This document shows, in pieces, positions 9,726 to 21,644 of a DNA stretch of 26,334 nt. The translations under genes and the position numbers were made by a program. The notes below the pieces were generated by a model that worked only from the letters and a program-made list of their open reading frames with translations, was not told the DNA's origin and did no database searches. Source of the DNA: a virus; IMG/VR virus record IMGVR_UViG_3300020411_000462, positions 1 to 26,334 of that record; one strand, given 5' to 3'. How positions within the stretch are numbered: the first letter of the stretch is position 1; each line of letters begins with the position of its first letter.

Positions 9726-10373
9726 ATGCAAATTTTTCTAGATACAGCTGATTACGGAGAGATTAAAGATCGTTATGAAACTGGTTTAATTGCTGGTATC
9801 ACTACTAATCCTACACTTGTTCGTAAGTCAGGAGTTTCTTATCTTGATTTTATTACTACCCTTTCAAAAGAGTTTTCTTTTGTGAGTATCTCTGCAGAAG
9901 TTAATGGAGATACTGCCGATGAAATGGTTGAGAATGCTCAACAGTATATTCAGATTGGTGAAGAAGTTACAATCAAACTTCCTCTTACTAGAGAAGGTCT
10001 TATTGCTTGTAAGGAATTATCTGACGAGGGCATTCAAACTAACGTTACCCTTTGCTTCTCTGTAGCACAGGCAGCAATGGCAGCACTAGCAGGTGCTACA
10101 TATATCTCACCATTTGTGGGTCGTCTTAATGACAATTCGTTCAGTGGTGTTGAACTTGTACGTGCTATCTCTGGATTATATAATGTTCAGGGATGTGAAA
10201 CTAAAATTCTAGCAGCATCTTTGCGTGATGTTCATCACGTTTCTAGATGCTTTTCTTATGGAGCGAGTGTAGCTACGCTACCTACTAAAATATTCGACAA
10301 GATGTATAATCATGTTTTGACAGATGCAGGTCTGGCAATCTTTGAAGAAGACTTTAAACATCTAAAAGAATGA
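9726..10373 (+). CDS. talC: Transaldolase, TalC/fructose-6-phosphate aldolase type
   Basis: This 215-aa protein belongs to the short transaldolase/FSA family common in cyanophages, where it is thought to shift host carbon from the Calvin cycle to the pentose phosphate pathway for NADPH and ribose. Landmarks are MQIFLDTAD at the start, GITTNPTLV, the Schiff-base lysine in VTIKLPLT (Lys84), GIQTNVTLCFS, YISPFVGRL and ILAASLRDVHH. Length matches the family (about 215 aa). No clear Shine-Dalgarno precedes ATG 9726. A consensus promoter lies 60-90 bp upstream. It overlaps the glutaredoxin gene by 4 bp, linking carbon and redox supply to nucleotide synthesis. Confidence 0.95.
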   Translation: MQIFLDTADYGEIKDRYETGLIAGITTNPTLVRKSGVSYLDFITTLSKEFSFVSISAEVNGDTADEMVENAQQYIQIGEEVTIKLPLTREGLIACKELSDEGIQTNVTLCFSVAQAAMAALAGATYISPFVGRLNDNSFSGVELVRAISGLYNVQGCETKILAASLRDVHHVSRCFSYGASVATLPTKIFDKMYNHVLTDAGLAIFEEDFKHLKE

Positions 10374-10612
10374 TTGTAATCTATTCAAAATCTGGTTGTC
10401 CATATTGTATAAAGATGAAAAAAGTGATGGAGTTAGAAGAACTCCCACATGTATCATATGAACTAGATCATGACTTTACAAGAGAAGAATTCTATGCTAA
10501 ATTTGGTGAGGGATCAACCTTCCCACAAGTGACTCTTGATGATATTCACCTTGGTGGATGTCAAGAGTCAATTCAACATATGCAACGTGAAAAGATTTGC
10601 TGTCAATTATGA
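10370..10612 (+). CDS. Glutaredoxin
   Basis: This 80-aa glutaredoxin has the redox motif CPYC at residues 10-13 (YSKSGCPYC), the cis-proline segment TFPQVTLDD and the GGCQE glutathione-site block, as in T4 NrdC-type proteins. It should pass electrons to the C-terminal CDSC of the NrdA encoded upstream. Its start overlaps the talC stop (ATGA, 10370-10373) and its stop overlaps the start of the 50-aa gene that follows. An extra Cys pair (ICC) near the C-terminus is unusual. Confidence 0.93.
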   Translation: MIVIYSKSGCPYCIKMKKVMELEELPHVSYELDHDFTREEFYAKFGEGSTFPQVTLDDIHLGGCQESIQHMQREKICCQL

Positions 10613-11799: not shown

Positions 11800-11817
11800 A
11801 TTTACATAGAGGTTACT

Positions 11818-12195
11818 ATGAGCGTTAGATCACATTTGGAAAAAGCAGAAGAAGCTATCCGTCAGGCATTGATGAACGCTCTTGCAGAGGGTGAAGATGC
11901 ATACCTAAACGAACTTTTTGAAAACTATAATTCAGTTCGTGATTTGAGAAAGAAAGTCTCTAACACTATTCGTTTTTCAGATCAAACTAGTCAGTGGTTT
12001 GATAATTTGAATGATAATATTTCATTTAATCTTACAGATCCTGATATTAGTGGAGGAACTTATCCAACTACTAAGATTGGAAAAGATTTAGACCTTATGG
12101 ATGGTTCATTCAATTTTGATAACATCAATATTCAAACTTATGGATCACCAGATGTTATCTCTTTTGGAGATTATAAAGATTCCAAAAAGGATTAA
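11818..12195 (+). CDS. Acidic protein of unknown function
   Basis: This 125-aa protein starts at ATG 11818 after an AGAGG ribosome site (11808-11812). The first ~60 residues form an acidic helical region (LEKAEEAIRQALMNALAEGE). The rest is rich in Asn, Asp, Phe, Gly and Ser, with aspartate repeats (DLDLMDGSFNFDNINIQ) that read as extended or beta structure. It looks like small cyanophage hypothetical proteins, but I cannot name a family. A short 18-bp gap separates it from the membrane protein, and the oxygenase gene follows after 5 bp. Confidence 0.7.
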   Translation: MSVRSHLEKAEEAIRQALMNALAEGEDAYLNELFENYNSVRDLRKKVSNTIRFSDQTSQWFDNLNDNISFNLTDPDISGGTYPTTKIGKDLDLMDGSFNFDNINIQTYGSPDVISFGDYKDSKKD

Positions 12196-12200
12196 TATCA

Positions 12201-12776
12201 ATGAGCAAAGTTCATAATTATTATTACTTACCAACAGCAATCGATAGTTCTGTTAGTGAAGTTATTGTCAATCAATTATCTAAACTAAAACTAGAAGAAG
12301 CTAGGATTACCGAATCTGGTAAAGAGTTAGGAGAAAGTAATAAAACTATTAGGAACTGCCTGACCCAAGGGATCCCTTCGGATCATTGGGTCTCAGGTAT
12401 GCTTGCTCATTTTGTCAATTGTGCCAATACTCAATTGTTTCATTTTGATCTTCATAACTGGGCGGATTATATTCACCTATGTGTGTACAATACAAATGAA
12501 TCACATTACCATTGGCACACTGATATTACTGCTTCTGCTTATAAGGAACCACCCGATCATATAAGAAAATTAAGTATCAGCATGTGTCTCTCTCCCAAAG
12601 AAGAGTATGAAGGTGGAGAGTTTGAATTATATGTTGGTAGAAAAATGTTTAGTTTTAAATTGGATTGTGGAGATGCCATCATATTTCCTTCAGATTGTAT
12701 GCATAGAGTTAAACGGATTAACTCTGGTACTAGAAAAGCATTAGTTGGATGGTATGGCGGTCCTCCTTTTAGATAA
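12201..12776 (+). CDS. 2-oxoglutarate/Fe(II)-dependent oxygenase (prolyl 4-hydroxylase-like)
   Basis: This 191-aa protein has the iron triad His106-x-Asp108 in YHWHTDIT and His168 in SDCMHRVKR, with Arg178 for 2-oxoglutarate. The block EYEGGEFELYVG followed by GDAIIFPSD is typical of PKHD/P4H-type hydroxylases. It differs clearly from the other oxygenase at 8673: different N-terminal half and different strand motifs. An AGGA at 12187-12190 precedes ATG 12201. It is the last gene before the late fibre block. Substrate unknown; protein or nucleic-acid hydroxylation are both possible. Confidence 0.87.
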   Translation: MSKVHNYYYLPTAIDSSVSEVIVNQLSKLKLEEARITESGKELGESNKTIRNCLTQGIPSDHWVSGMLAHFVNCANTQLFHFDLHNWADYIHLCVYNTNESHYHWHTDITASAYKEPPDHIRKLSISMCLSPKEEYEGGEFELYVGRKMFSFKLDCGDAIIFPSDCMHRVKRINSGTRKALVGWYGGPPFR

Positions 12777-12780
12777 TTAG

Positions 12781-12787
12781 ATAAATA
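12781..12787 (+). promoter_or_regulatory. T4-type late promoter box
   Basis: ATAAATA in the gap between the oxygenase and the first fibre gene matches the T4-like late promoter core (TATAAATA in T4, commonly CTAAATA/ATAAATA in cyanomyophages). It lies 38 bp before ATG 12825, so the start site would be about 25 bp before the gene. It marks the left edge of the late block. Confidence 0.6.
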
Positions 12788-12824
12788 CTTCTAGCTTAGT
12801 GTAACTGTCTTCAGGACTGGAAGT

Positions 12825-14752: not shown

Positions 14753-14759
14753 CTAAATA
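14753..14759 (+). promoter_or_regulatory. T4-type late promoter box
   Basis: CTAAATA (14753-14759) lies 24 bp before ATG 14783 in the short intergenic gap. A strong ribosome site, GGAAGGAG (14764-14771), sits between the two. It could drive the 334-aa fibre gene and the protease gene behind it, which has no box of its own. Confidence 0.6.
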
Positions 14760-14782: not shown

Positions 14783-15787
14783 ATGGCAATTAATTTTCCC
14801 TCAACAGCAGGGCAGGCAACTGACGGTTCATATACGTATACAGTAGCGGGTATTGTATACTCATGGAACGGATCGTCTTGGGAAGCAGCAGGTGCAGGTG
14901 CTAGTGCAACTGATAGAAGTTTGTTCAGTGTCACCACTAACGCTGCTGGAACTGCTGCTCTTTCATACAATAATAGTAATGGTGTATTTTCATATACTCC
15001 TCCTAATCTTTCTAGTTATCTAACAGCAGAAGCAGATACTCTTGATACAGTAACGGGAAGAGGTGCGACAACATCAAATAATATAACAGCAGGTAATTTA
15101 ATATGTTCTGATGCTGGACAGTTCTCAGTTGGAACATCACAATATGCAACACTTGGATATAATGTTGCTGGTACAAAAGTTGTATACAATGGAAACAATA
15201 GCAATTTTGATGTAATAGCAGATCAACTTGATTATTATTCTGGTGCAACTCTAAAAGCTACTCTTAATTCAACTGGATTGAATGTTGTTGGATCTATTGT
15301 TGGTAATTCTTTAACTGCTGGTGGTCTTACATACCCAACGAGCAACGGGACTAGTGGTCAGGTCTTGACCAGTGATGGTGCAGGTGGTGTAACTTGGACC
15401 GCAGGTGGATTACAATCAAGAGCTACAACAGGAGTAACACAATCTATTGCAGGAGGAGCATCTGCTGATGTCTCTATTACGGCACCTTCTGGTTATGCAT
15501 TATTAGCTATTGAAACATCACATGCTGCATGGGTGACACTTTATAGTGATACAGCAAGTAGAACACTTGATGCTACTAGAGCTATTACTAATGATCCTTT
15601 ACCAGGATCAGGTGTTCTTGCAGAAGTAATCACAACTGGTGCAGCAACTCAAAAGATTACACCAGGAATTATTTGTTTTAATTCTGGTGGTGCTGGACAG
15701 AATACTACCTATGCCAAGATTGAGAATAGAAGTGGTTCTACTAATAATATTACAGTAACGCTTACATATATCACATTAGAGGCTTGA
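14783..15787 (+). CDS. Tail-fibre-like mosaic protein
   Basis: This 334-aa protein shares modules with the 641-aa fibre upstream: GTAALSYNNSNGVFSYTPP, DTVTGRGATTSNN, and LTYPTSNGTSGQVLTSDG before a VTWT strand. The N-terminal stretch (DGSYTYTVAGIVYSWNGSSW) is a short fibre module, and the C-terminal ~120 residues form a distinct beta-rich domain of alternating Thr, Ile and Val. A receptor-binding or accessory-fibre role is inferred. Expression is strongly suggested by the late box and GGAAGGAG ribosome site just upstream. It ends one base before the protease gene. Confidence 0.8.
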   Translation: MAINFPSTAGQATDGSYTYTVAGIVYSWNGSSWEAAGAGASATDRSLFSVTTNAAGTAALSYNNSNGVFSYTPPNLSSYLTAEADTLDTVTGRGATTSNNITAGNLICSDAGQFSVGTSQYATLGYNVAGTKVVYNGNNSNFDVIADQLDYYSGATLKATLNSTGLNVVGSIVGNSLTAGGLTYPTSNGTSGQVLTSDGAGGVTWTAGGLQSRATTGVTQSIAGGASADVSITAPSGYALLAIETSHAAWVTLYSDTASRTLDATRAITNDPLPGSGVLAEVITTGAATQKITPGIICFNSGGAGQNTTYAKIENRSGSTNNITVTLTYITLEA

Positions 15788-15788
15788 T

Positions 15789-17972
15789 ATGTCGGAAAAA
15801 ATCTACATCGTCACTCTTTATAAGAGAGAAGACTTAGAAGGTTTCTATTCAGAGATGAAGGAGAATGGTTTCCGTGTAAACCTAAAACGTCCATTGAGTA
15901 GAGCAACTCACTATTGGATGACTTCCGAACAAGCAGAAGAATTAAAACAAGATCCTAGAGTCTGGGATGTAGAATTAAATCCAGATGATGCTGGAGTAGA
16001 GTTGATTCGTAATACATATCCCACTAGCTTAAATCACTCTACCATTTTATATACAGGTGAATATTGGAAAGATGATAGTATTTCACCACCTGTTAATCCT
16101 TTTGATGATAACTGGGGATTATTCCATCACTGTGGTGTGTATGGTGCTGGAATCCCTACTAGAGATAAGAATAATTTTGGTAGTGGTGTAGTAGAAAAAA
16201 TTCCTGATGATATTATTTGGCACAACGATGGTGCAGAAGTTGATGTAGTCATTTGTGATGATCCTGTATCTAGTGATTGTGGTGAGTGGTTAGATAGACT
16301 TAACAGACAACCAGTACAGGGAGCAGGAACTACTAATAGATTTGTAGAGTACCAATGGTTTAATAATCTCAATAGTGCAGTGTCATCTATAGATGATGAT
16401 GGACAGGTACTACCTACTGGTAACGTAACTTACTATACTAATGGAACAAATATTGAGATGCATGGTACTCACGTTGCAGGAACTGTAGCTGGTGGTACTT
16501 ATGGATGGGCGTCAGCAGCAAACATATATGGTTTACAAGTTCTTGGAACAATGCCTTCTGGTCAATCTTTACCAGGACTATTGGTCTTTGATTATCTAAG
16601 AGCATTCCATAGCAATAAAACAATTGATGACAATTTAGGAATTAGAAGACCTACTATTACTAATCATAGTTGGGGGTATGGTATTACAGCTAATAGTGAG
16701 ACCTTCCCTAATGGTTTTGATATCTCTGACATTATTGAAATTAATTATGGTGGTGTAATTTACGATGCAAATAATCCAGGACCATCTGGTTGGAACATAT
16801 ATGGTATTGAAGTGGACTTTGGTATAGGACAATATAAACTTAGGTTCCCTTACCATTACACTGCAATTAATGCAGATATTGAAGATGCAATTGCTGATGG
16901 TGTTGTCATTGTTGCAGCTGCAGGAAATAATAATTTCAATATTGTTAAAGATACTTCTCCAGATTGGAATAACTATGTAAGAATTAATGGAGTAAGTGGT
17001 GGTAATCCAATTTATTTTAATAAAGGTTCATCTCCAGGATCATCTCCTAATGCTATTAATGTTGGTGCCATTAGTAAGTATGCTAATCAACGAAGAGCTA
17101 ATTTCACTAACTATGGAGAAGGTGTAGATATCTTTGCTGCTGGAGAAAATATTCTTTCTTGTTGGCCAAACCCTGCTACAATTGTTGGTGATTATGCTGG
17201 TATTGGATTGGTTGATGGAAAATATGCTCAAGGAACTGGTGATTGGTATTACCCTATCAGTGGTACTAGTATGGCAAGTCCACAAGTTACTGGTATTCTA
17301 GCGTGTGCTGCTACTGGTAAGAATAGATTTACTCAAGAAGATGCTTATGGAGTTATTGGAAGAGGTATTCAGAAAGATTTGATGACTTTTGATACAGGTC
17401 TTGGTGGTGGATCTATTGCTCTCTCATATGGTGTGACAGTTACAGCACCTAGTTCTTCTTTCTATACACTTAGTGGAACTACCAGAGAGGGAAATGTTAA
17501 TGGTAATGATATTAATATTAGAATTTACTTAGGTGATACGATTAATTTTAATTTGAGTAACGTTGGTGCTACTCATCCGTTTCATGTGAGAGATACTCCT
17601 GGTGGATCAGATGTAAGTAATCCTACTATTCCTAACAATGGATCTACAGGAACAGTAACAATCTCTTGGACTCCTGCAGCTTCTGGAACTTATTATTACC
17701 AATGTGGTACTCATTCCAGTATGCTTGGTGTTATTATTGTAGATGATTATTCCAGTCCTCCTCCAGGAACATTTGCAGATGATTCATGTAGAGCACTTAC
17801 AGAAAACTATACTATCGAGTATAAGTTTACTAGATGGCAGGGCACAGGTGACTGGTCAGGTGGTGGTATCTCTGGAGTAGCTGATGATTTTAAGGGAAGA
17901 AGAAAACTAGAACAGAATTCATTAGCATTTCCACGTAGGAACACTTTGTTCCAACCTCCAGTTGGACCTTAG
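15789..17972 (+). CDS. Subtilisin-like serine protease with C-terminal cupredoxin domain
   Basis: This 727-aa protein has a complete S8 catalytic set: Asp157 (VDVVICDD), His228 (MHGTHVAGTVAGG), oxyanion Asn380 (VAAAGNNN) and Ser494 (SGTSMASPQVTG). Residues 1-70 (KIYIVTLYKREDLE to DPRVWDVELNPDD) resemble an I9-type inhibitory propeptide. No secretion signal is visible. After the protease, residues about 550-653 form a cupredoxin-like domain with His596 or His599 (THPFHV) and YYYQCGTHSSMLG, giving Cys639, His642 and Met645, the Cys-x2-His-x2-Met spacing of amicyanin. About 70 residues of unknown tail follow. AGAGG at 15777-15781 supports ATG 15789. Its position between fibre genes suggests a virion-associated or fibre-maturation protease (inference). 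Confidence 0.88.
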   Translation: MSEKIYIVTLYKREDLEGFYSEMKENGFRVNLKRPLSRATHYWMTSEQAEELKQDPRVWDVELNPDDAGVELIRNTYPTSLNHSTILYTGEYWKDDSISPPVNPFDDNWGLFHHCGVYGAGIPTRDKNNFGSGVVEKIPDDIIWHNDGAEVDVVICDDPVSSDCGEWLDRLNRQPVQGAGTTNRFVEYQWFNNLNSAVSSIDDDGQVLPTGNVTYYTNGTNIEMHGTHVAGTVAGGTYGWASAANIYGLQVLGTMPSGQSLPGLLVFDYLRAFHSNKTIDDNLGIRRPTITNHSWGYGITANSETFPNGFDISDIIEINYGGVIYDANNPGPSGWNIYGIEVDFGIGQYKLRFPYHYTAINADIEDAIADGVVIVAAAGNNNFNIVKDTSPDWNNYVRINGVSGGNPIYFNKGSSPGSSPNAINVGAISKYANQRRANFTNYGEGVDIFAAGENILSCWPNPATIVGDYAGIGLVDGKYAQGTGDWYYPISGTSMASPQVTGILACAATGKNRFTQEDAYGVIGRGIQKDLMTFDTGLGGGSIALSYGVTVTAPSSSFYTLSGTTREGNVNGNDINIRIYLGDTINFNLSNVGATHPFHVRDTPGGSDVSNPTIPNNGSTGTVTISWTPAASGTYYYQCGTHSSMLGVIIVDDYSSPPPGTFADDSCRALTENYTIEYKFTRWQGTGDWSGGGISGVADDFKGRRKLEQNSLAFPRRNTLFQPPVGP

Positions 17973-18020: not shown

Positions 18021-21000
18021 ATGGCCGACCGCTTTCCGTTAATTGTTAATCCAGTTTCTCAGAAGATTGAAGAACTGATTTCTGGAGATAACCTAGACTT
18101 CACAGGTAACAACTTTGTTATCTCTGGGGATTCTGGCAATGGTAAATATCTGACGAGCGATGGAACGTCGATTCTCTGGGGAACACCAGGAGATGTATAC
18201 CTTACACAGACACAAACTCTTACAAACAAAACACTAGAAGGTTGTAATCTTGTTGGTACTCTTAACACATTAACCAACATACCAAACAACTCATTAATTA
18301 ACTCACAGATTACTGTTAACGGTGCTGCTATTGCTCTAGGTGGATCCGTAACTACTCCAGACAACAATACTACTTACGCTATCTCTGCTCAAGATGGTGC
18401 TGGTGCTGCTCAAAAAATTATTAGATTGACATCTGGCGGTAATGCTGGTGCTGGTGTTGATGATGATGTTACTCTTGCGGTTGGAGTACCTTCATCTGTT
18501 CCTGCTGGTAACAAAGCACTTAGCTTGTTTATCGATAGAACTGGTGAAACTATTACAATCTCTGGTCATCAAGAAGATGATAACACTGTAACTACAATCC
18601 AGTCTGCTACTGGTGGTACAGCACAGAGTGGAGATATTACTATTGCTGCAACTGGATCTTCTACAATTTCTCAGGACGCAGCATCCAAAACAATTACGAT
18701 CAACTCAACTTATGTTGACACTATTACTAGACTAAGAGCAACTACTGGTCAAGTATTTGCTGATGCAGACTTTACTTTCTTAGCTACTGGTGCAAGTACA
18801 GTAACTCAAGGTGTTGATGGTAATGGTGATCCTACTATTACATATGATTCTGTTGATACTATCACTAGATTAAAAGGTGGTGCAGCAGGAACATTTGTGA
18901 CTGGTGACACAACAATTACAGGTGGAGCAAATGTTACTGTATCTCAATCGGGAAATGATATTACAGTAACTAGTGTAGACACAGATACTGTTACTAAATT
19001 AGCTGCAAACTCTGATGTTCTTTCTTCTGGAGATTTTCGATTTACAGGTGCTGGAGCAACTGCTGTTACCACACAAACAGTTGGTGGTGTAACTACATTA
19101 ATATTTACATCTGCCAACGATGATACTGGTGCACAATTAACTGCATCTGATGGTTTGATACTTGATGGTACTAACTTTGAGATAAAGAATGCTTCAAACT
19201 TAAGTGGTAACACTGTAGTAAAATGGGACTCTGGTAATAATCAATTAACAGATACATTAATTACTGACAACGGATCTACAGTTACTATAGGTGGAGATTT
19301 AGTTGTCGAGGGAACTCAAACAATTTTGAATACTTCTACTTTACAGGTGGAAGATAATGATATTGAATTAAGAAAAGGAGTTAATCTTACTGGTTCTAAT
19401 GGTGGTATTACTCTCAACAGAACAACTGATGCTTCTGGTAATGTTACATCATTTGTTGGACTTCAGTGGAATGAGTCTTCAGGATATTGGAGATCTTGGG
19501 ATGGTTCAACGGAAAAGAGATTTGTTACAGAAGGTGAGACACAAGTTCTAACAAACAAAACTCTTACATCACCAACACTAACTGCTCCTGTTCTTGGTGC
19601 AGCTACAGCTACATCAATTAATGGTCTGGAGATTGCTTCTACTGCATCTGCAACTATAGATATTGCTACAAGTAAAACTTTAGATGTTGATAGAGATCTA
19701 CTCTTTACATCTGATAATGCCAACGCTTCTATTAGTGTAAACTTTAGACAGGGTGGTAACGTAGCATATACATCTGATACTCTTGCTACCTTTGCATCTA
19801 CTACATCCACACAGTTACGTGGTTTGATTACAGATACCACTGGTCTTGATAAGTTGGTGTTCCAAACAAACCCAACAATTCTAACTGGTATTACAACAAC
19901 ATCTTCTGGATTTACTTTACTTAATTCTGGTGTAACCAACTTGACTATGGCAGGTGCAGCTAGCATCATCACAATTGGTGCTGCTGGTGGTACAACAACA
20001 TTTAATCAGAGTGTAACTGTAAGTGAAGATTTAATAGTAGGTGGTGCTTCAACTGATAATCTTACATGTAATGCTCAGTTCAACTCTGAAAATGCTGACT
20101 TACTAATCAGAGGAACTGGTACTGATCCAATGAGAGTTGGACGTGGTGCTAGTGCTGTCAATACAAACACTGCAGTGGGTGTAAGAACACTCAACAGTGT
20201 CACTTCGGGATCTCAAAATACTGGATATGGATTTGAAACATTATTCACGGTAAATTCTGGTGCATCTAATACAGCTTTTGGCCACAGGTGTTTGAGAGCA
20301 ACTGGTATCGGAGATAACAACATTGCGATTGGTAAAGATGTATTGCTGGTTAATACTTCTGGAAGTGAAAACATAGGTATTGGTAACAATGTTTTAGAGC
20401 AAAATATTGACGGAAAACATAACGTTTGTATTGGACATTATGCAGGTTTTGATGTCTTTGGTGATGGTAACGTTCTTATTGGACCTGCATATAATGAGAA
20501 CTCTGGTGATGTAACATTCCGTCCACCTAATATTAGTGGAGATAACCAACTTGTTATTGGTTCAGGTGGTCAGGCATGGGTCAGAGGTGATGCAAACTTT
20601 GATGTTACTTTCAATAATGATGTTACTGTTGACGTTGATCTAACAGTTAAAGGTAACTTAAATGTCCTAGGACAACAGACAATTACTGAGTCTAATATCA
20701 TACGAGTTGCTGATAAGAATATTGAACTTGCATATGTTGTAAGTAGACAGTTCGTAGCTACTGCTGTTGATGGAACAGCAGACATCACTGCAATCAATCC
20801 TACTGCTGGTTTGATTCCTGGTATGGAAGTTACAACTTCTACAAATGGATTTACAATTCCACCAAACACAACTATTGTTTCTATCACTGCTAATGCTGCT
20901 ACATTATCAAACAATATCACTGGTAGTGGACAGATTACATTAACTGCTATTGGTCCTTCTGATACTACTGCTGTTGACGGTGGTATGATTGTTAAGGGCA

Positions 21001-21644
21001 CCACTGACAAGTCGATTCTTTGGAAGGGAGCAGATGCTGGTGTCACATATAACACATGGGTATCTTCTGAGAACTTTGATCTTGCTTCTGGAAAGTATCT
21101 TACACTAAATGCAATTAAAATTGCTGATCCAAACACATTAGCTATAGGACCTAACGACGGAACAAATACAGGAGAAATTAATGTTGCTGGTGGATCCACT
21201 GGATATACTTTAGGTAGTGCAGTAACTGGTGCTGGTGCAACAACGTTTAGTTTCTCTAGCACTGGTCAGATTAAATTACCAAATGGTGATACATCTCAAC
21301 GTGAATCAAATCCTGTCGCTGGAATGATGAGATATAACGGTCAAACTCATCAGTTTGAAGGTGCTACTGGTTCTACTCCTGCATGGGGGCAACTTGGTGC
21401 AAACTTTGCTAGTGTTGCTGAAAATATTATTCCTGATGCTGATAACACAAGAGATCTTGGATCATCTGCTAAGAGATGGGCAAACATATACTCTGCTGAC
21501 CTTCAATTATCTAATGAGGGTGCTGCTAATGATGTAGATGGAACTTGGGGTCAGTACACAATTCAAGAGGGTGAGACAGACCTCTTCCTAATAAATAGGA
21601 GAAGCGGTAAGAAGTATAAGTTCATGCTCCAGGAGGTAAACTAA
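18021..21644 (+). CDS. Large tail-fibre protein with YadA-like repeats
   Basis: This 1207-aa Thr/Ser/Gly/Asn-rich protein has features of long cyanophage fibres. It begins MADRFPLIVNPVSQKIEELI, then TLTNKTL motifs occur near residues 65 and 515. A module GDLVVEGTQTILNTSTLQV (about 427-445) recurs as DLTVKGNLNVLGQQTITESN (about 873-893). Residues about 711-820 hold NTAVG, NTGYG, NTAFG, NNIAIG, ENIGIG, HNVCIG and GNVLIG, a left-handed beta-roll repeat like the YadA head. The C-terminus has a GMMRYNGQTHQFEG module and a basic end (INRRSGKKYKFML). Trimeric adhesin folding and host binding are inferred. Large minus-strand open frames inside it are codon-bias shadows. Confidence 0.85.
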   Translation: MADRFPLIVNPVSQKIEELISGDNLDFTGNNFVISGDSGNGKYLTSDGTSILWGTPGDVYLTQTQTLTNKTLEGCNLVGTLNTLTNIPNNSLINSQITVNGAAIALGGSVTTPDNNTTYAISAQDGAGAAQKIIRLTSGGNAGAGVDDDVTLAVGVPSSVPAGNKALSLFIDRTGETITISGHQEDDNTVTTIQSATGGTAQSGDITIAATGSSTISQDAASKTITINSTYVDTITRLRATTGQVFADADFTFLATGASTVTQGVDGNGDPTITYDSVDTITRLKGGAAGTFVTGDTTITGGANVTVSQSGNDITVTSVDTDTVTKLAANSDVLSSGDFRFTGAGATAVTTQTVGGVTTLIFTSANDDTGAQLTASDGLILDGTNFEIKNASNLSGNTVVKWDSGNNQLTDTLITDNGSTVTIGGDLVVEGTQTILNTSTLQVEDNDIELRKGVNLTGSNGGITLNRTTDASGNVTSFVGLQWNESSGYWRSWDGSTEKRFVTEGETQVLTNKTLTSPTLTAPVLGAATATSINGLEIASTASATIDIATSKTLDVDRDLLFTSDNANASISVNFRQGGNVAYTSDTLATFASTTSTQLRGLITDTTGLDKLVFQTNPTILTGITTTSSGFTLLNSGVTNLTMAGAASIITIGAAGGTTTFNQSVTVSEDLIVGGASTDNLTCNAQFNSENADLLIRGTGTDPMRVGRGASAVNTNTAVGVRTLNSVTSGSQNTGYGFETLFTVNSGASNTAFGHRCLRATGIGDNNIAIGKDVLLVNTSGSENIGIGNNVLEQNIDGKHNVCIGHYAGFDVFGDGNVLIGPAYNENSGDVTFRPPNISGDNQLVIGSGGQAWVRGDANFDVTFNNDVTVDVDLTVKGNLNVLGQQTITESNIIRVADKNIELAYVVSRQFVATAVDGTADITAINPTAGLIPGMEVTTSTNGFTIPPNTTIVSITANAATLSNNITGSGQITLTAIGPSDTTAVDGGMIVKGTTDKSILWKGADAGVTYNTWVSSENFDLASGKYLTLNAIKIADPNTLAIGPNDGTNTGEINVAGGSTGYTLGSAVTGAGATTFSFSSTGQIKLPNGDTSQRESNPVAGMMRYNGQTHQFEGATGSTPAWGQLGANFASVAENIIPDADNTRDLGSSAKRWANIYSADLQLSNEGAANDVDGTWGQYTIQEGETDLFLINRRSGKKYKFMLQEVN
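21591..21597 (+). promoter_or_regulatory. Possible late promoter box inside fibre gene end
   Basis: ATAAATA (21591-21597, context CTAATAAATAGGAG) lies in the 3' end of the 1207-aa fibre gene, 47 bp before ATG 21644. It could drive the 60-aa gene and the 1414-aa gene. As it also encodes fibre residues, chance is not excluded. Confidence 0.35.

Follow-up and report, generated by a model that had tools for sequence, protein, structure and literature searches.

Metal sites reported in phage tails are mostly iron sites, and metal-binding tails include the HxH iron sites of T4 gp37 and the tail of Alteromonas phage R22Y (PMC11705849). The locus described here is like these HxH-iron tails in having candidate metal ligands in a tail-fibre-region protein of a marine phage. 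It differs from HxH iron held in a trimeric fibre in that its putative ligands are of type-1 copper character and lie on a cupredoxin fold; the H-x-H motif was absent from the 727-aa sequence when this was read directly. The protease part of the protein resembles Peptidase S8 enzymes of the proteinase K/aqualysin type in fold, catalytic triad, oxyanion Asn and, as modeled, prodomain topology, and its relatives show the last-strand motif GSPNxYL. Unlike those enzymes, it is encoded in a tail gene cluster, has a cupredoxin domain inserted before its last strand and carries an extra C-terminal KGxR...FPR tail. The cupredoxin part shares with rusticyanin, plastocyanin and amicyanin the predicted fold and, as aligned, all four ligands, and its Cys-x2-His-x2-Met loop spacing is like that of amicyanin, a comparison also drawn in a first-pass annotation of this DNA. 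In contrast to these single-copper cupredoxins, the phage module is built into a protease and into further proteins of phage tails, has no known electron-transfer partner, and in some copies carries an axial Gln or no ligand at all.

The closest described proteins are those of cyanophages S-CAM4 (C440309_190), S-H9-1, P-HM1 and S-CAM1, which likewise unite S8 and cupredoxin domains in one protein; the S-H9-1 and S-CAM1 relatives are recorded as "subtilisin-like serine protease" and "putative proximal tail fiber", respectively. Such cyanophage relatives are annotated as hypothetical, as protease only, as Ig domain or as tail fibre, with copper unmentioned, and they differ from the present gene in that their module occupies the C-terminus, precedes the protease or flanks it on both sides. 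The S8 and cupredoxin folds are each already known, and their recurrent union in tail genes seems undescribed; in the open-access literature, we found nothing on cupredoxin, plastocyanin-like or copper-binding modules in cyanophage or other phage tails. The first-pass annotation had read the gene as a protease with a type-1 copper domain. Sequence profiles, structure prediction and the joint conservation of the ligands support that reading, and support its interpretation in part.

The window (the whole 26,334-nucleotide stretch analysed), a virus record of 26 kb, most closely resembles Synechococcus myoviruses, S-CAM4 and ACG-2014j among them. The gene and its neighbors are as follows:

14783-15787, + strand: preceding fibre-cluster gene, phrog_9627, unknown function
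15789-17972, + strand: entire gene (727 aa), an S8 protease into which a cupredoxin domain is inserted
18021-21644, + strand: following gene, virion structural protein, phrog_6002

S-CAM4 and S-RSM4 show the same gene order of fibre gene, small fibre-cluster protein, protease and structural protein. The protease start codon lies 1 nt past the stop of ORF 14783-15787, and a CTAAATA box occurs at 14754, 29 nt upstream of the start of that ORF; a second box is found 37 nt upstream of 18021. The protease is probably co-transcribed with the preceding gene. Given the 1-nt gap and the CTAAATA sequence before the preceding ORF, a late promoter common to both genes, as the first-pass annotation had proposed, is plausible.

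Positions 15789-17972 form a single open frame, as had been claimed, and when checked in translation every residue named earlier was found at its number. PHROG matches to the ORF fall in two parts, with phrog_9158 covering aa 2-536 and several tail-protein families matching aa 526-654. The protease features are:

15798-15977, + strand: I9-like prodomain, aa 4-63, predicted b-a-b-b-a-b
16206-17411, + strand: main part of the S8 catalytic domain, aa 140-541, by Pfam and fold match
16257-16259, + strand: catalytic Asp157, aligned with the Asp of DTG in SSCSM1_228 of phage S-SCSM1
16470-16472, + strand: catalytic His228, canonical motif HGTHV
16926-16928, + strand: oxyanion Asn380, canonical motif AAGN
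17268-17270, + strand: catalytic Ser494, canonical motif GTSMASP
17769-17840, + strand: last strand of the S8 fold, aa 661-684, 3' of the insert, by structure match and empty-site alignment
17841-17969, + strand: C-terminal tail with family motif KGxR...FPRR, aa 685-727, mostly low model confidence

The intact triad with N380 was borne out by a Pfam Peptidase_S8 match (E = 9.5e-26; 91.2 bits against a cut-off of 21.8), by the lack of any variation at D157, H228, N380 and S494 across 30 aligned relatives, and by a subtilisin fold: the predicted catalytic domain matches ProteinT, of proteinase-K type, with Z 33.7 and rmsd 2.5 over 277 aligned aa. The full-length model, built from a 30-row alignment, has a moderate mean pLDDT of 75.4. 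The proposal of an I9-like prodomain agrees with the modeled b-a-b-b-a-b order of the I9 fold, although the Pfam I9 match (E 0.092) falls below threshold.

The cupredoxin domain had been placed after the protease. It is instead inserted in the loop right before the last protease strand, since the proteinase-K-type structural match extends to model residue 680, past the cupredoxin, and since in the multiple alignment, with the insert omitted, the C-terminus aligns to that of cupredoxin-free relatives (GG|FTDxTCxKGSPNxYL...KGxR...FPR). The strand that follows the insert rules out a simple C-terminal fusion for this protein. The features of the inserted module are:

17433-17747, + strand: inserted cupredoxin (type-1 copper) domain, aa 549-653, by model, profile and fold match
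17574-17576, + strand: putative copper ligand His596, His in 143/145 copies
17703-17705, + strand: putative copper ligand Cys639, the domain's only Cys, Cys in 142/144 copies
17712-17714, + strand: putative copper ligand His642, His in 142/143 copies
17721-17723, + strand: putative axial copper ligand Met645, with Met in 132, Gln in 9 and Leu in 1 of 144 copies

On the single sequence, Pfam Copper-bind (E 0.023, under cut-off) and NCBIfam amicyanin (0.026) gave weak matches. A profile of 18 diverse phage copies matched solved copper cupredoxins in the PDB at 4e-8 to 1e-4, including copper nitrite reductase (4e-8), rusticyanin (1.8e-6), plastocyanin (6.6e-6) and amicyanin (6.5e-5). The domain model of aa 549-653 has a pLDDT of 97.5, and the top structural matches listed for it are cupredoxin folds, among them the N-terminal copper domain of 2dv6 (Z 11.5, rmsd 2.0, 94 residues) and rusticyanin (about Z 10). 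These profile matches and the predicted fold bear out a cupredoxin-like domain; the fold is not that of a plain Ig or carbohydrate-binding domain, and a plain Ig domain is ruled out by both kinds of match. In the profile alignment to rusticyanin, four phage residues (His, Cys, His and Met) are in register with the positions that we take to be the copper ligands of that protein. By this register the putative type-1 set is complete, as had been claimed, with H596, C639, H642 and M645. The first ligand had been given as either His596 or His599; conservation favors H596, whereas H599 can be rejected, as position 599 is Y, R or K in other copies. Use of Cys639 in a disulfide is unlikely, since it is the sole Cys of the cupredoxin domain.

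The per-site counts above were made over 148 unique copies from viral contigs, of which 143-145 were scored at each site. The copies average 36% identity, and the four ligands are among their most conserved positions; residues in the loop beside the ligand His are variable. Known type-1 copper sites use these three residues, Met, Gln or Leu, in the axial position. Replacement of the axial Met by Gln (HCHQ, stellacyanin-type) was seen at aa 1419-1523 of L082 and in similar copies within proteins of 1.8-2.0 kaa. Across 80 full-length copies of the protease family, which are relatives chosen largely by protease peptides and pooled with other family members, all four ligands were kept in 71, all four were lost in eight and two were lost in one; the kept fraction of 71/80 is an upper estimate because degenerate copies are harder to detect. 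The ligand-less copies have E, S, N/T/S and V/A as replacements and retain the fold-defining residues, and the eight may reflect one or few events. That the ligands are conserved jointly speaks for a need for copper, or for some metal at any rate, in most copies. Neither the module nor the metal is essential, since some relatives lack the module or have a LamG domain and some copies are ligand-less. The copies that lost all ligands (L156, L157, L162, L163, L165, L167, L153 and L158) form a natural metal-free comparison set.

The domain was found in 155 of 50,697 phage records, nearly all of them cyanophages, and its carriers are annotated as gp9 baseplate wedge/tail fibre connector, proximal tail fibre and minor tail protein, among others. 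A sample of carriers was drawn from viral contigs with a DNA pattern for the copper loop YYYxCxxHxxMxG. Among the matches listed, 79 of 80 pattern loci encode a cupredoxin domain, and Pfam S8 is the commonest partner (26/79 carriers). The window-family S8 profile, again among the matches listed, hit 24/79 carriers and 3/149 other ORFs of at least 300 aa (Fisher p 7.5e-10, over non-independent loci in 9 protease clusters). The first-pass annotation had suggested a survey of cyanophage genomes for conservation of the fusion; the S8-cupredoxin union does recur, but the position of the module varies or the module is missing. The window-family S8 profile was used to sample 80 cellular loci, and none of these had an S8-cupredoxin fusion; the sample is non-exhaustive, and the profile misses distant S8 domains, such as those of P-HM1 type. 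No plasmid-borne relatives of the cupredoxin domain were found.

Layouts vary widely. Among 76 complete relatives, the module follows the FPR tail in 37, precedes the tail in 12, lies on both sides in seven and is absent in 14, with other layouts in six. In the multiple alignment, its place relative to the protease is N-terminal, at one of at least three internal places or C-terminal, and insertion inside the protease domain occurs in several lineages. A domain tree of 171 copies, which is rough and built on few columns, requires at least six changes for each of two protease positions and places the copy of this gene near copies from the 1.8-kaa proteins of P-HM1 type. Judged from these comparisons of sequence, the module is joined to proteases repeatedly and from several origins. 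For the L012/L170 pair, which has a C-terminal cupredoxin, dS is 0.18 in the cupredoxin and 1.0 in the protease; a cupredoxin dS so far under that of the protease suggests that the module alone was swapped by recombination. In all comparisons, dN was lower than dS. In one S8 phage protease, a LamG/concanavalin-A-like domain stands in the place of the cupredoxin (L119, aa 618-767).

Synteny supports a tail- or virion-linked context, also claimed earlier, as does mass spectrometry on virions of the related phage S-SCSM1, in whose purified particles 45 proteins were detected (PMC9602691). The S-SCSM1 record carries the note "(virion protein)" on ORF213 and ORF214, both named as detected in that paper, and lacks it on some core baseplate genes, so the note is taken to indicate detection. 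It is attached to SSCSM1_228 (L426, 3577-7812), which has an S8 match (E 2.9e-26), an intact triad and LamG domains where other members carry the cupredoxin, and to the fibre protein SSCSM1_231, in which the copper ligand set is complete. By analogy, the detection of both supports a location of the window protein in the virion, short of proof. The S8 and the cupredoxin of the S-SCSM1 virion are, however, on two separate proteins, which counts against the reading favored below. The main text on S-CREM1 gave no link between its S8 protein and virion mass spectrometry.

We moderately favor the reading that the gene encodes a tail-borne surface S8 protease of a T4-like cyanophage with an exchangeable, copper-stabilized accessory module, because the module varies in position, is also found in fibre and baseplate proteins, is exchanged with LamG and has jointly conserved ligands. 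The varied positions point to a peripheral module and not to a copper switch on the catalytic site, while presence in fibre and baseplate proteins and exchange with LamG suggest display, targeting or stabilization at the particle surface. The I9-like prodomain would probably chaperone and restrain the enzyme until assembly, and the particle-borne protease would most likely cleave host-surface proteins during adsorption. The cupredoxin would protrude beside the protease as an exchangeable accessory module, taking up copper from the lysate or from seawater. Copper would most likely make the fold of the module rigid and resistant to proteolysis and help to direct the particle to the host surface or keep it there, instead of gating catalysis. 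For the window protein itself, we infer copper occupancy, virion location, substrate and the role of the metal.

The rival explanations are ranked as fibre maturation, metal-free display, redox switch and copper Trojan horse, in that order. A fibre-maturation protease would act inside the cell, cleaving the neighboring fibre and structural proteins as well as itself, with the cupredoxin as an assembly anchor that docks on the tail. The I9-like prodomain, the place of the gene, with a fibre gene immediately before it, a structural gene immediately after it and co-transcription probable, and the gene order common to S-CAM4 and S-RSM4 are in keeping with this. We nevertheless regard it as unlikely, as S-SCSM1 particles still contain an S8 relative once they are complete, and some relatives have no cupredoxin, so the cupredoxin is not a required anchor. 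Phage tail proteins commonly collect Ig-like domains, and the module could be one more display or adhesion domain of Ig-like kind, metal-free, whose copper ligands are left over from an ancestor and whose function needs nothing but the fold. That copies with all four ligands replaced retain their fold-defining residues, and that the module is exchanged with LamG domains, would fit such a role. Against it, the ligands are among the best-kept positions at a mean identity of 36% and, when lost, go as a set, and where a copy is otherwise intact its axial site is limited to residues of real type-1 sites; we consider it quite unlikely.

A role in redox chemistry or metal sensing, in which electrons pass between the module and host surface proteins, or the module detects copper and oxygen and switches the protease on extracellularly, is improbable. 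It would draw on the apparently complete type-1 site and on insertion within the protease domain in several lineages, but the place of the module differs so widely that a common switch interface is unlikely, the module is also found in tail proteins without a protease, and the loop residues beside the ligand His vary. Metal sensing is the least supported of the roles proposed in the first-pass annotation, because the position of the module varies widely and the module occurs in proteins without a protease. Nearly all of the named phages infect cyanobacteria, which have no known outer-membrane copper receptor of a matching kind, and we give very little credence to a copper Trojan horse, in which a host copper-uptake or copper-binding surface protein would recognize the metal-loaded module as a receptor-binding part. 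The presence of the module in several fibre and baseplate proteins would suit this idea, which is otherwise an analogy to the iron use proposed for phage tails (PMC11705849).

Beyond the favored reading of a surface protease with a copper-stabilized module, marine tailed phages might possess a general device of exchangeable blue-copper tail domains, built time and again into extracellular proteases, with copper serving attachment or proteolysis-coupled redox at the host; we put this forward tentatively and think it doubtful. If true, phage particles would be a carrier of protein-bound copper in seawater. A conserved type-1 copper module in tail-region proteins of more than 150 phage genomes, nearly all from cyanophages, which has entered subtilases repeatedly and at different places, would add copper to particle chemistry and invites tests of the way in which marine phages deal with host surfaces in an ocean that is both poor in copper and sensitive to it. 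The comparison also corrects annotation, in that several "hypothetical", "Ig-domain" and "tail fiber" proteins of cultured cyanophages, those of P-HM1 and S-CAM1 among them, combine a protease with a cupredoxin. The 1.8-kaa protein of P-HM1 (L060) has S8 at aa 283-589 by Pfam together with copper domains. Its P-HM2 counterpart in size, PHM2_106 (L178, 4066-9549), in which the cupredoxins alone were tested directly, is a 1.8-kaa "hypothetical" protein with an Ig-domain note and two or more cupredoxin domains. That note (PF07686) probably arises from the Ig-motif resemblance of the ending GTYYYxC. In P-SSM2 (PSSM2_297/298; L180, 1976-7116), an S8 gene is immediately followed by a two-cupredoxin fibre gene, the two being neighbors and unfused. 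Marine Bacteroidota (L305, L313, L335, L344 and others) carry the copper domain at the extreme C-terminus of surface-like cellular proteins, which are a possible source or sink of the phage module.

Elsewhere in the window, a small thioredoxin-fold-like protein with a glutaredoxin-like CPYC motif is encoded at 10370-10612, adjoining a transaldolase gene. The tail-fibre gene of S-CAM4 and S-RSM4 is preceded by tRNA-Gly; the window has no tRNA, and its region 11800-12824 holds a 2OG-Fe(II) oxygenase gene at 12201-12776.
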